Of a DNA stretch of 64,000 bases, positions 8,472-52,361 are shown piece after piece. Both the position numbers and the translations under genes were made by a program. Source of the stretch: Blautia hydrogenotrophica DSM 10507 (GTDB lineage Bacteria > Bacillota > Clostridia > Lachnospirales > Lachnospiraceae). Below the pieces are notes generated by a model that was given only the letters and a program-made list of their open reading frames with translations, was not told the DNA's origin and did no database searches. The stretch lies in contig NZ_CP136423.1 in NCBI RefSeq assembly GCF_034356035.1, positions 2,604,001 to 2,668,000 of the forward strand. The letters run 5' to 3'. Position 1 is the first letter of the stretch, and each line of letters opens with the position of its first letter.

Positions 8472-8505
8472 GGCTTAGTACTCCAAGGTCTCCATATACT
8501 TCATA
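8472..8505. other. attL core (34 bp)
   Basis: This sequence is identical to bases 52328-52361. It starts GGCTTAGTACTCCAAGG and ends TATACTTCATA. On the minus strand it encodes the last residues (KYMETLEY) and stop of the CdaR/PucR-type regulator, left here as an orphan copy. Confidence 0.93.
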
Positions 8506-48594: not shown

Positions 48595-48640
48595 AAAACC
48601 GCCCCTGTGTTAACGCACCGGATCGGTCACATACCCGAAT
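48595..48640 (+). repeat. AAAAACCGCCCC hairpin repeat, copy 1
   Basis: AAAACCGCCCCTGTGTTAAC... folds as ACCG/CGGT and GTG/CAC and is followed by CACATACCCGAA. Similar units lie at 49958-49990 and 50851-50900. Each stands before an accessory gene (AbiF-like, KilA-N, integrase). Confidence 0.5.
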
Positions 48641-48749
48641 ACTTTCCATTAATGAATATCCAAAACTATACGGGAATGCTTTATAACCAATTAACTGCGA
48701 AATCGATTATATAAATTCTATAGTGCAAAGGAAAGAAAGGCGTTGCTAT

Positions 48750-49754
48750 ATGAAGAATGACAAATTCTTTTTAACTTATAATCAGCAAATGAGAAAACTT
48801 AGAAATGATAAAAATATTATCTGTAATGGTTCGTTAGATAAGAAAATTTTAGTGCGTGCTGGTTATTTCAATATTGTAAATGGATATAAAAATCCGTTCA
48901 TTAGCGGTTGTGATGCCGGCGGAAATCACATATATATTTCCGGCACATCATTAAGTCAGCTACAATCTGTAAAAAAGTTTGATGAACAGTTACGTTCTTT
49001 CCTTTTGCGCTATATTACTCAAGTAGAGGAAGAAACTAGAACACTATCAGGTTATAAGTTTGACGAATGTAATGATAATGGAAATATTCCTTGGTATGAT
49101 ACAACTGCTTATAATCCAAGAAAATCTTTACAAGATAAAATGAACGTTATTTCAAAAGCTTATAGTGAGTTGAGCAAAAGCAAACTTGATTATGTAAAGT
49201 TTTATATGGAAAATCATAAGCAGATTCCTACTTGGATTATGTTTAAAGTTGTAAATTTTTCCACCTTTATAGATTTAATAAATGTTAGCAAAATGGATGT
49301 TTCGCATTCGTTGTGTCATCTTTATGGATTAACAGATAAAAAAGGACTATCTAACGTAAAACTGTTAATCGGGAGTCTTCATTGGATGCGGACAATAAGA
49401 AACTCCTGCGCCCATAATGAACGTATTTACTGTTTAACTAGAAAACCAGATAAATCTCGAAATTCGGGCAGAGTTCTCGAAAGTTATTTTCGTATGCTTG
49501 GTAATAATTATACTAGGGATCTGGAACAAAAAGTATTTGATTTAATAGTATATTTCAAATATTACCTTCCTCAAAGAGAATACAAAGCGTTCATTTCTGA
49601 GCTGAAAACTATGTTAAATGATTTACAATCTAAAATCCATCCACATGCTTTTAAGACAATACGCGGACAAATTGGTATCAAACATCTAAATGATTTAGAT
49701 AGGTTGCTTTCCTTTCCGAAAAACGAGATAGAATATAATAAATTTGATAAGTAG
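48750..49754 (+). CDS. AbiF/AbiD-like abortive infection protein (Abi_2 family, HEPN)
   Basis: The protein of 334 residues begins 'MKNDKFFLTYNQQMRKLRND', continues 'RAGYFNIVNGYKNPF' and has 'LHWMRTIRNSCAHNERIYCL', with the HEPN RNase motif R217-x4-H222. These are features of the Abi_2 (AbiD/AbiF) family of abortive infection proteins. AbiF proteins are linked to a conserved non-coding RNA that acts as antitoxin, and are considered relatives of the ancestor of Cas13. ATG 48750 is chosen over a GTG at 48723 because GGAAAGAAAGG would lie inside the gene. A two-hairpin RNA candidate lies 130 bases downstream. Confidence 0.85.
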   Translation: MKNDKFFLTYNQQMRKLRNDKNIICNGSLDKKILVRAGYFNIVNGYKNPFISGCDAGGNHIYISGTSLSQLQSVKKFDEQLRSFLLRYITQVEEETRTLSGYKFDECNDNGNIPWYDTTAYNPRKSLQDKMNVISKAYSELSKSKLDYVKFYMENHKQIPTWIMFKVVNFSTFIDLINVSKMDVSHSLCHLYGLTDKKGLSNVKLLIGSLHWMRTIRNSCAHNERIYCLTRKPDKSRNSGRVLESYFRMLGNNYTRDLEQKVFDLIVYFKYYLPQREYKAFISELKTMLNDLQSKIHPHAFKTIRGQIGIKHLNDLDRLLSFPKNEIEYNKFDK

Positions 49755-49867
49755 TATTTAGATGCATCAACACATAACAAAATAGTAAATATCATAGTCA
49801 AAAAAAACATTAAAACACTTAAAATAATATATTTTAATATATTGTAATATATTTTTGTTTATAGTAG

Positions 49868-49941
49868 TATACTTGTGTAGAGAGAACCATATTGATTATG
49901 GTTGAAAGGCACTCATGCAAGTATTTGTATGGGTGCTTTTT
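49868..49941 (+). ncRNA. Candidate abiF-linked structured RNA
   Basis: After a TATACT box (49868-49873) comes a compact two-hairpin sequence. Stem 1 is AACCATA/TATGGTT with a TTGAT loop (49885-49903). Stem 2 is a 12-bp stem GCACTCATGCAA/TTGTATGGGTGC with a GTAT loop (49909-49936), followed by TTTTT. There is no reading frame in it. It lies between the AbiF-like and KilA-N genes. It has its own promoter-like box and terminator, as expected of a separate small RNA such as an RNA antitoxin. Confidence 0.6.
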
Positions 49942-49957
49942 ACTTTTACCAGAAATT

Positions 49958-50010: not shown

Positions 50011-50853
50011 ATGAAAATAAATGCAAACGGAACTGAAATATCTGTAATATTAAATCAGGGTAATACGCGCGATTACATTTCCCTTACCGATATTGCCAAA
50101 CGGAAAAACACAGATGACCCAAGAATTGTAATATCTAACTGGATGAGTTCTTATTCAACAATAGATTTCCTGGCAACTTGGGAAAGTTTATATAATCCTA
50201 ATTTTAACCGTATGGAATTCCAGACGGTTAGAAGTGAACCTGGGCGCCTAATTATGACACCGAAACAATGGATAGAGCGTATGTCCGCTATTGGTATTAC
50301 ATCACATGCCGGCCGATACGGTGGTACTTATGCTCATTCAGATATAGCGTTTGAATTTGCTTCGTGGATATCCCCGGAATTTAAACTATACATAATAAAG
50401 GATTACCAACGACTTAAGCTAGAAGAGTCCAAACGTCTTGAAATCGGATGGGATACGAAAAGGGAACTATCAAAAATCAATTATCGCATCCACACAGATG
50501 CAATAAAAGAATTTCTCATTACTCCAGAACTTACAAAGCAAGAGAAAAGTTATAAATATGCCACAGAAGCAGACATATTGAATATGGCTTTGTTTGGAAA
50601 AACAGCAAAGCAATGGAGAGAAGAAACTGGAAATAAAAAATTAAATATGCGTGATTTTGCCAGCGTAGAACAACTCATTGTCTTGGTAAATCTTGAGAGC
50701 TTAAACGCTGACTTAATTCGTCAGGGGCTTCCAACTGAAGAAAGAGTACAGAAATTAAGAAGTGTGGCTTATTATCAGTTGAAATCATTGGAAAACAGCA
50801 ATGCTGCCAACCGATTGAAAGAAAACATAAAGAAACAAATTGAGCAAAAATAA
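50011..50853 (+). CDS. KilA-N domain DNA-binding protein
   Basis: The protein of 280 residues begins MKINANGTEISVILNQGNTR and has a KilA-N domain at residues 15-125: 'YISLTDIAKRKNTDDPRIVI', 'ISNWMSSYSTIDFLATWESL', 'GGTYAHSDIAFEFASWISPE'. The rest is helical ('AEDILNMALFGKTAKQW'-like). KilA-N proteins serve as phage antirepressors or regulators. ATG 50011 has AAGGAAGAAGG upstream. It lies between the abiF-linked RNA and the integrase gene, and could control either. Confidence 0.82.
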   Translation: MKINANGTEISVILNQGNTRDYISLTDIAKRKNTDDPRIVISNWMSSYSTIDFLATWESLYNPNFNRMEFQTVRSEPGRLIMTPKQWIERMSAIGITSHAGRYGGTYAHSDIAFEFASWISPEFKLYIIKDYQRLKLEESKRLEIGWDTKRELSKINYRIHTDAIKEFLITPELTKQEKSYKYATEADILNMALFGKTAKQWREETGNKKLNMRDFASVEQLIVLVNLESLNADLIRQGLPTEERVQKLRSVAYYQLKSLENSNAANRLKENIKKQIEQK

Positions 50854-51010: not shown

Positions 51011-52237
51011 ATGGGTGAACTACGAACACGAAAGAGAGGAAAGACCTGGGAATACAGCTTCGAAGGAGCCAAAATTGACGGAAAAAGAAAACCAATATCC
51101 AAGGGCGGATTCCGCACCAAAGCAGACGCCCTAAATGCGGGCATAAAAGCAAAGGCAGAATACGACAGCGGCGGACGCGTCTTCACTCCCTCTGCAATCA
51201 GCCTGTCGGATTACCTGGACTACTGGTACAAAAGATATGCCAGCAAATTAACATACAAGACACAGGATACCTACAAAAATCATATCCGTCTGCATATCAA
51301 GCCCTACCTGGGCAGTTACCGGATTTCCAGCCTGGAACCGGATGTTATCCAGGAATGGGTGGATGAGGTCCTTCACTCACAAAAAAAGCTTGCAAGACAG
51401 TCCATTGCAAACATTCTGGGAGTACTGTCAGGAGCTTTAAACTATGCCGTACAGCCTTTAAGGTACATACGCAGCAATCCTTGTATCTATGTAAAAATAC
51501 CGGATATTAAGGTGGACAAGAAAGCCAAAGACCATACGGACTTTGTTCTCTCAAAAGAAGACTGGAAGCAAATTAAAGAATATTTCTCTTCTGCTCCTGA
51601 GAGTCATTCGTATCTCTTCTTTCCTCTGATTGTCGGATACCATACCGGGGAGAGAATCGGAGAGATCTTCGGCACAGATCTGCTTGCTGACTACAATCCT
51701 GTTCGGCATACTTTGTCTGTCTCGCATCAGCTCCAAAAACAGAAGGGAATTCTGCTGTACACAAATCCAAAGTATGATTCCTTCCGGATAAACAAAATTG
51801 ATTCCTTACTCGAGGCTGAAATCCAAAAAGAACTAAAAAGAAGGGAATGTGATCGGCTGCGCTACAGGGAATACTATAAAAATACCTACCTGCTGCCGGA
51901 CAACACAATCGTCCAGCTGCCCGCGGACTCTCAGGTGCCTGACAGTTACCAGGAGATCTGGCCGCTCGGTGTAAAACAAGACGGTACCATCCTGACCACT
52001 GAACATGCGAAGCATATGTCCAGAATCGTCAAAGACAAGGTCGGCATAGAATTATTCCATCCACACTGCCTGCGTCACACACACGGCACCATTCTGGCCC
52101 AGAGCGGCGCTTCGCCAAAGACCATCATGGAACGCCTCGGACATAAGAATATCAAAGTCACAATGGAGCGGTACGTGTTCAATACAGAAGAGATGCAGAA
52201 CCAGGCAGTCTCCCTGTTTGAAAACGCCATAAAATAG
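51011..52237 (+). CDS. int: Phage integrase (tyrosine recombinase)
   Basis: The 408-residue protein has three parts. An N-terminal arm-binding domain (1-60, 'GKTWEYSFEGAKIDGKRKPI') is followed by a SAM-like core-binding domain (65-165, 'TQDTYKNHIRLHIKPYLGSY'). The catalytic domain holds Arg in 'GYHTGERIGEIFGTDL', His-x-x-Arg in 'HPHCLRHTHGTILA' and Tyr in 'LGHKNIKVTMERYVF'. It catalyses prophage insertion and excision at the 34-bp att core 90 bases downstream. Arm repeats flank both ends of the prophage. Confidence 0.95.
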   Translation: MGELRTRKRGKTWEYSFEGAKIDGKRKPISKGGFRTKADALNAGIKAKAEYDSGGRVFTPSAISLSDYLDYWYKRYASKLTYKTQDTYKNHIRLHIKPYLGSYRISSLEPDVIQEWVDEVLHSQKKLARQSIANILGVLSGALNYAVQPLRYIRSNPCIYVKIPDIKVDKKAKDHTDFVLSKEDWKQIKEYFSSAPESHSYLFFPLIVGYHTGERIGEIFGTDLLADYNPVRHTLSVSHQLQKQKGILLYTNPKYDSFRINKIDSLLEAEIQKELKRRECDRLRYREYYKNTYLLPDNTIVQLPADSQVPDSYQEIWPLGVKQDGTILTTEHAKHMSRIVKDKVGIELFHPHCLRHTHGTILAQSGASPKTIMERLGHKNIKVTMERYVFNTEEMQNQAVSLFENAIK

Positions 52238-52327: not shown

Positions 52328-52361
52328 GGCTTAGTACTCCAAGGTCTCCATATACTTCATA
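52328..52361. other. attR core (34 bp)
   Basis: This is identical to 8472-8505. Bases 52331-52361 are the last codons and stop of the CdaR/PucR-family gene, so integration left that gene's reading frame intact. Confidence 0.93.

Follow-up and report, generated by a model that had tools for sequence, protein, structure and literature searches.

The 64,000-nucleotide (nt) stretch of Blautia hydrogenotrophica DSM 10507 analysed here (hereafter the window; contig NZ_CP136423.1) contains a prophage-borne gene for an AbiF-type HEPN protein, followed on the same strand by a compact RNA with two hairpins. We propose that the two probably constitute a module of nuclease and downstream RNA, in which the RNA, represented by our model R1, would act as the neutralising partner of AbiF. 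This proposal combines the protein evidence, compensatory changes in the RNA, the linkage of RNA and gene in 11 of 11 genomes with a close AbiF relative, the placement of transcription units beside other Abi_2 genes and an analogy with a characterised pair (PMC12373285). The protein family, the predicted fold, the conserved RNA structure and its fixed linkage to this AbiF clade are direct results of the analysis, and the role assigned to the RNA is derived from protein homology and RNA analogy. A preliminary description of the locus had observed a phage-borne HEPN protein of the AbiF type next to a two-hairpin RNA, an observation that holds; of its interpretation, the downstream RNA as a variant layout was borne out, and the ties to the Rfam abiF RNA family (RF03085), to a further RNA upstream and to a KilA-N gene were not.

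The AbiF protein and its linked downstream RNA

The components of the proposed module, with hairpin lengths in base pairs (bp), are as follows:

48750..49754, + strand: AbiF-type Abi_2/HEPN protein, 334 residues, assigned by Pfam and predicted fold
49398..49415, + strand: codons of the HEPN motif RNSCAH, residues 217-222 (R217-H222)
49842..49873, + strand: promoter-like block read from the sequence, TTGTAA (49842-49847) and TATACT (49868-49873)
49880..49943, + strand: small RNA whose start is an estimate based on the TATACT box; the R1 match spans 49875-49943
49885..49903, + strand: hairpin 1, AACCATA-TTGAT-TATGGTT, 7 bp (49885-49891 with 49897-49903), flanked by GAGA and GAAAG
49907..49940, + strand: hairpin 2 and U run, an intrinsic terminator

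Judged by its sequence and modelled structure, the 334-residue protein is an AbiF-type HEPN protein, its name resting on family and fold. It matches the Pfam family Abi_2 (PF07751) with 127 bits (E 1.3e-36; curated cut-off 25.6); PADLOC returns AbiD, likewise at E 1.3e-36, and an NCBIfam search gave no match. Within the RNSCAH motif, all 26 aligned Abi_2 proteins share R217, N218, A221 and H222, in keeping with the HEPN assignment made in the preliminary description. The modelled fold agrees with the solved structure of PbAbiF (PDB 8vz6), to which the protein is 16% identical in the structural alignment. This structure is reportedly that of a PbAbiF-non-coding RNA complex, described by Zilberzwige-Tal et al. 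in 2025; our comparison concerns its protein only.

The RNA is about 65 nt long and lies about 125 nt 3' of the AbiF gene on the same strand. The TATACT box, the 7-bp hairpin and the 12-bp terminator hairpin (consensus pairs 49907-49918 with 49927-49938, then a U run) all lie at the positions first given for them. The spacing of TTGTAA and TATACT is 20, so that they do not form a standard -35/-10 pair; the same promoter-like block is found again ahead of AbiF-linked RNAs. Segment 49875-49940 folds with -27.4 kcal/mol (z -6.35 against 500 dinucleotide shuffles), and hairpin 1 by itself reaches a z of -3.02 against such shuffles. In an alignment of 13 RNAs, hairpin 1 is fully paired in every one and has changes on both sides at three of its seven pairs, and hairpin 2 has them at six of its 12. 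Altogether, 98.3% of the 239 cells are paired, with both-side changes at nine of 19 pairs, and pairing drops to 33.5-45.9% in a control with the partners slid by one to three columns. Of five covariation measures, four were matched by none of 500 shuffles; for the fifth, further pair types, 152 shuffles did so. These counts are not probabilities, given the shared kinship of the 13 RNAs. The downstream element is a conserved structured RNA with compensatory changes in both stems. GAGA, the loop and GAAAG are nearly fixed across its copies, a conservation exceeding the needs of a terminator, and no part of it is variable in the manner of a spacer.

Searched against Rfam, the window returned no family at the gathering score; two weak matches, PyrG leader (28.2 bits against 65) and ctRNA (21.9 against 50), were rejected as far below their cut-offs. 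RF03085, the model with which the preliminary description had proposed to check the locus, gave no match in the window at its gathering score of 37 bits, and matched the phage phiC2 control, at 37.6 bits, as well as other loci. Both RNAs are small, occur beside Abi_2 genes and are also found alone in phages, but RF03085 has a bulged stem, a large loop and a fixed core, whereas the window RNA is a plain 7-bp hairpin plus terminator. An Rfam search of six AbiF-linked and two solo RNA loci yielded nothing but transfer RNAs (tRNAs). Zilberzwige-Tal et al. (2025) reportedly present several AbiF RNA models (PMC12804078), among which the window RNA type may be found. R1 has one strong match in the window (88.1 bits, with the window RNA itself part of the model); the runner-up, at 19.2 bits, is the opposite strand of the same hairpin, and tandem antitoxin repeats were not found.

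The RNA is firmly tied to its AbiF clade. Among the first eight fetched loci with AbiF relatives, it lies downstream in seven; at the exception, L005, the query AbiF was matched over residues 1-232 only. For L005 and the contigs C28 and C57 of genome G159, AbiF is in two pieces on two contigs, with the RNA adjoining the C-terminal piece, which reflects either an assembly break or an element junction. We surveyed 397 genomes of the same family and 391 of the class under strict filters. In the family, 93 genomes contain an Abi_2 match to the query AbiF, and the 11 whose AbiF is at least 57% identical all have a strong R1 match beside it, located, where measured, 60-165 nt behind the gene on the same strand. 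Across 14 clade loci, the GAGA of hairpin 1 begins 52-163 nt past the AbiF stop; in genome G198, the query matches two adjoining pieces with a stop. The 17 R1 matches of at least 57 bits in the family are followed by a next best of 36.4 bits, and matches below 37 bits, of which the 17 inspected resemble plain terminators, were excluded from the counts. The class survey gave two strong matches, both within this family. At L031, with an AbiF only 35% identical and an R1 score of 26 bits, the RNA is likewise linked. Two Lachnospira eligens plasmid records also match the RNA; one of them was examined, and there an Abi family gene precedes the RNA. The AbiF bearers among the named relatives belong to the Lachnospiraceae and other Clostridia.

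Other Abi_2 genes have different arrangements. From a set of 106 loci (74 newly collected, 32 earlier; some gene starts or ends are partial, e.g. L030 and L151), the 103 with both flanks were scanned mechanically for a promoter, a short RNA and a terminator on each side of the gene. Such a unit was found upstream only at 51 loci, downstream only at 24, on both sides at five and on neither at 23, compared with rates of 2.5% upstream and 3.1% downstream in shuffled flanks. On visual comparison, several sequence types can be told apart among the upstream RNAs, including one that resembles RF03085, and several also among the downstream RNAs. The window clade (14 rows, including L031) has no detectable upstream unit, one flank being too short to judge, and a downstream unit in 13 of 14, with the R1 RNA or its counterpart in 12 of these 13. 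At L030, the unit scored is another hairpin that the R1 RNA precedes, and at L023 R1 is present by model match. On a quick tree of 105 proteins with long and unsure deep branches, the labels upstream (69) and downstream (22) require three changes, 14 rows with both or none having been left out; the labels derive partly from a motif rule written after viewing the sequences, which turned rows into upstream, including three whose unit is downstream and one that has units on both sides. Several unrelated RNA types are seen in the upstream units of L085-L158 and L032-L049, and downstream units also occur at L106, L130, L137, L139, L140, L143, L152, L154 and L158.

The gap upstream of the window AbiF (48595-48749), where another structured RNA had been suspected, gave no Rfam match at the gathering score, no match to the abiF RNA model with the threshold relaxed to E 10 and no promoter-plus-terminator unit in the mechanical scan, and the upstream flanks of AbiF homologues bear no resemblance by eye. 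An RNA at this site was rejected on these grounds.

Proposed mechanism and rival readings

The analogy is drawn from AbiFCd-RCd22 of the Clostridioides difficile prophage phi027 and phage phiC2, in which AbiFCd is toxic, depends on its HEPN residues R202 and H207 and is neutralised by RCd22 through direct binding (PMC12373285). In both loci, an Abi_2/HEPN protein encoded by a prophage is accompanied by a small structured RNA, a promoter and a terminator. However, RCd22 lies upstream, is read through into abiF and contains two RF03085 motifs, whereas the window has one copy of a different RNA, positioned 3' of the gene and equipped with a separate promoter-like block. Type III toxin-antitoxin systems (ToxIN, AbiQ, CptIN and TenpIN) are comparable in that a ribonuclease toxin is held by an RNA, but they have upstream repeat-array antitoxins and a different toxin family (PMC12373285). 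Their RNA precedes the toxin gene, is separated from it by a terminator and is co-transcribed with it, whereas the RNA in the window follows its gene and no upstream unit was found. By analogy, the module is best read as type III-like, with an RNA that is downstream and structurally different.

In the mechanism that we infer, use of the promoter-like block would provide separate expression of the ~65-nt RNA, which would bind and silence the otherwise toxic AbiF-type HEPN ribonuclease. Hairpin 1, with its conserved loop and its GAGA and GAAAG flanks, is the likely protein-binding part, and hairpin 2 would terminate transcription. Control would come from an excess of RNA over AbiF protein, such that a loss of the RNA supply through phage take-over or prophage loss could free the nuclease. 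Being encoded behind abiF and preceded by a promoter-like block of its own, the RNA could not attenuate the gene in cis in the manner of an upstream leader.

Several results weigh against this proposal. Binding is argued by analogy because the RNA is unlike RF03085, and 23 of the 103 Abi_2 loci lack a unit on either flank, some of them bearing an RF03085-like motif. Moreover, the RNA has a life of its own, occurring without AbiF. Among the 17 strong R1 matches in the family, 11 lie beside AbiF, one in G084 adjoins the degraded end of an AbiF gene, and the remaining five, in G256, G132, G086, G061 and G151, come from genomes without an Abi_2 match to the query. In viral sequences, a degenerate pattern with two hairpin 1 pairs left free matched 19 stretches; both free pairs are complementary in 13, and the other six, at 16.5-22.4 bits, were dropped. 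A second pattern gave seven stretches, all already in the first set, and a DNA search in phage records gave no match. Two of the 13 viral records are AbiF-linked, with Abi_2 in both. The other 11 (L050, L052, L054, L170-L175, L177 and L182) have solo copies scoring 52.4-78.0 bits and no Abi_2, although, with no viral record rated 90% complete, its absence may reflect fragments.

The solo copies might be mere decaying remnants of AbiF modules, and there are indeed signs of decay among the genome copies, such as the degraded AbiF end in G084 and an altered loop at L163; six of seven hairpin 1 pairs are retained in solo L162 as well as in linked L184. Remnants thus exist among genome copies but fail to explain the viral ones, because hairpin 1 is fully paired (7/7) in all 11 of these. 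By eye, the promoter-like block is missing in ten of the 11 and partial in L052.

Their presence also bears on another view, in which phages or mobile elements carry the RNA as an independent small RNA or terminator cassette, with a job unrelated to AbiF, and AbiF modules acquired it. This view would account for the solo copies in 11 of 13 viral records and five of 17 genome matches, several of them near terminase or other phage genes: a large terminase subunit lies within about 1.3 kilobases (kb) of the RNA at L054 and L174 (PHROGs) and, by eye, at L050 and L172 (PHROGs gave nothing for the L050 terminase), and other neighbours are ParB (L173), a head or Clp-like protease (L182) and an integrase (L052). 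By eye, the solo genome copies L160, L161 and L163 adjoin what we take to be genes of defence systems or mobile elements (DUF4041/T5orf172-like, Wadjet JetA-like and AbiE-like). We nevertheless consider a cassette unlikely, since all 11 clade members keep the RNA directly behind AbiF, other Abi_2 clades are accompanied by different RNA units, upstream or downstream, and loop and flanks are conserved past the needs of a terminator.

It is less probable still that the RNA serves as a guide-like or activating cofactor of AbiF, given the nearly fixed GAGA, loop and GAAAG without a spacer-like part, and given that the characterised AbiF RNAs neutralise (PMC12373285; and, in the part available, PMC12737573). 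We give about as little credence, or slightly less, to an antisense RNA that regulates by pairing with the start region of the abiF mRNA. Small RNAs adjoin toxin genes in many antisense pairs, but complementarity to the abiF start, the only mRNA region compared, shows no excess in nine linked loci (mean z -0.27, range -0.95 to 0.19), and this candidate was rejected.

Solitary RNAs and phage tRNA genes

Eleven viral records thus combine a close copy of the RNA with no detected effector, as in a phage RNA mimic, albeit in what may be fragments. Two such mimics, the pseudo-ToxI of phage PhiTE (PMC3475682) and the Racr anti-CRISPR RNAs (PMC10651486), have been shown to inhibit, according to the parts of both papers available. 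Like them, the orphan R1 copies appear as solitary phage copies of a defence system's own RNA; unlike them, orphan AbiF RNAs are candidates only. By this analogy, orphan R1 RNAs are perhaps anti-AbiF decoys. Tentatively, and with somewhat less than an even chance of being right, we suggest that orphan RNAs of the R1 and RF03085 types could be widely carried by phages as an RNA-only counter-defence, a phage-supplied antitoxin disarming AbiF. To judge by its title, a study by Rince et al. from 2000, cited in PMC12737573, reportedly concerns a DNA region of phage sk1 that protects from AbiF.

A 17-base core pattern of RF03085 matched at least 120 viral stretches, and 80 loci (L201-L280) were analysed. 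Among the matches listed, the outer stem is paired at five or six of six positions in 52 of 81 places, and Abi_2 is present in one of 50 stem-checked records (from 51 loci, one left out) and absent from 49, which are not 49 independent losses, as several RNA stretches are near-identical and many records span only 4-6 kb. In a bacterial survey, RF03085 matched in 12 of 150 genomes, with Abi_2 within 1.5 kb at four of ten loci (by a profile from this family's AbiF that may miss distant members); RF03085 without detected Abi_2 is therefore not confined to viruses. The available part of one report describes a phage case of RF03085, in cyanophage S-CREM1, without a counter-defence reading (PMC9964418). 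A pattern for a different type of upstream RNA had 14 viral matches, none of them with Abi_2; this number is near chance by a rough estimate and was left out of account.

Some orphans adjoin phage tRNA genes. For four of the 11 solo viral R1 copies, a tRNA gene lies on the same strand no more than 300 nt away, compared with 0.39 expected at random positions, a lenient control because non-coding genes cluster between genes and random positions include coding DNA; in addition, L172 and L174 seem to represent a single kind of phage. The neighbours are three tRNA-Asn(gtt) genes and one tRNA-Tyr gene, in the following places:

L177, 4726-4863: R1 orphan and tRNA gene
L172, 644-1029: R1 orphan and tRNA gene
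L174, 719-1009: R1 orphan and tRNA gene
L171, 2444-2673: R1 orphan and tRNA gene

For RF03085, a tRNA gene is nearby in seven of 80 places among the matches listed, with 1.57 expected; the stem is confirmed in five of these (L204, L213, L244, L260 and L267), and L233 and L236 failed the stem check. The location of some orphans within or next to phage tRNA genes would be consistent with tRNAs being among the targets of AbiF, and tRNA-Asn(GUU) is a first guess for this clade.

In our searches of the open literature, neither an AbiF RNA placed downstream of its gene nor a counter-defence role of orphan AbiF RNAs was described, although the models of Zilberzwige-Tal et al. (2025) may include RNAs of this kind. 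Should the orphan RNAs prove functional, they would give phages a way around a widespread abortive-infection family by RNA alone, comparable to the Racrs, and such escape RNAs could be found by covariance search. With its structurally different RNA downstream, and relatives whose RNAs lie upstream, the window clade also offers a natural series of RNA-protein re-pairing. Cas13 is held to descend from AbiF, and the passage of the RNA from inhibitor to guide is treated as an open question (PMC12737573).

Prophage setting and neighbouring genes

The surroundings of the module include the following features:

8472..8505: left copy of a 34-bp direct repeat, probable att site (repeat comparison)
50011..50853, + strand: KilA-N gene, neighbour outside the module (PF04383; PADLOC PDC-S22)
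51011..52237, + strand: prophage integrase (family search)
52328..52361: right copy of the 34-bp direct repeat, probable att site (repeat comparison)

The repeat encloses 43.9 kb containing terminase, portal, head, tail, primase and integrase genes, which substantiates the phage-borne nature of the locus. Within this prophage, AbiF has the repressor region on one side and the integrase on the other. The KilA-N protein matches the PADLOC candidate defence family PDC-S22 with 406.7 bits over nearly its full length. The suggestion that it shares the RNA was rejected, since at E 1e-3 no KilA-N match was obtained at any of 16 homologous loci, some of them with short flanks. A short GC-rich element beginning with AAACCGCCCC occurs in three + strand copies, at 48596, 49959 and 50854, confined within the window to the surroundings of AbiF and KilA-N; by eye, similar elements are present at L002, L003 and L024.
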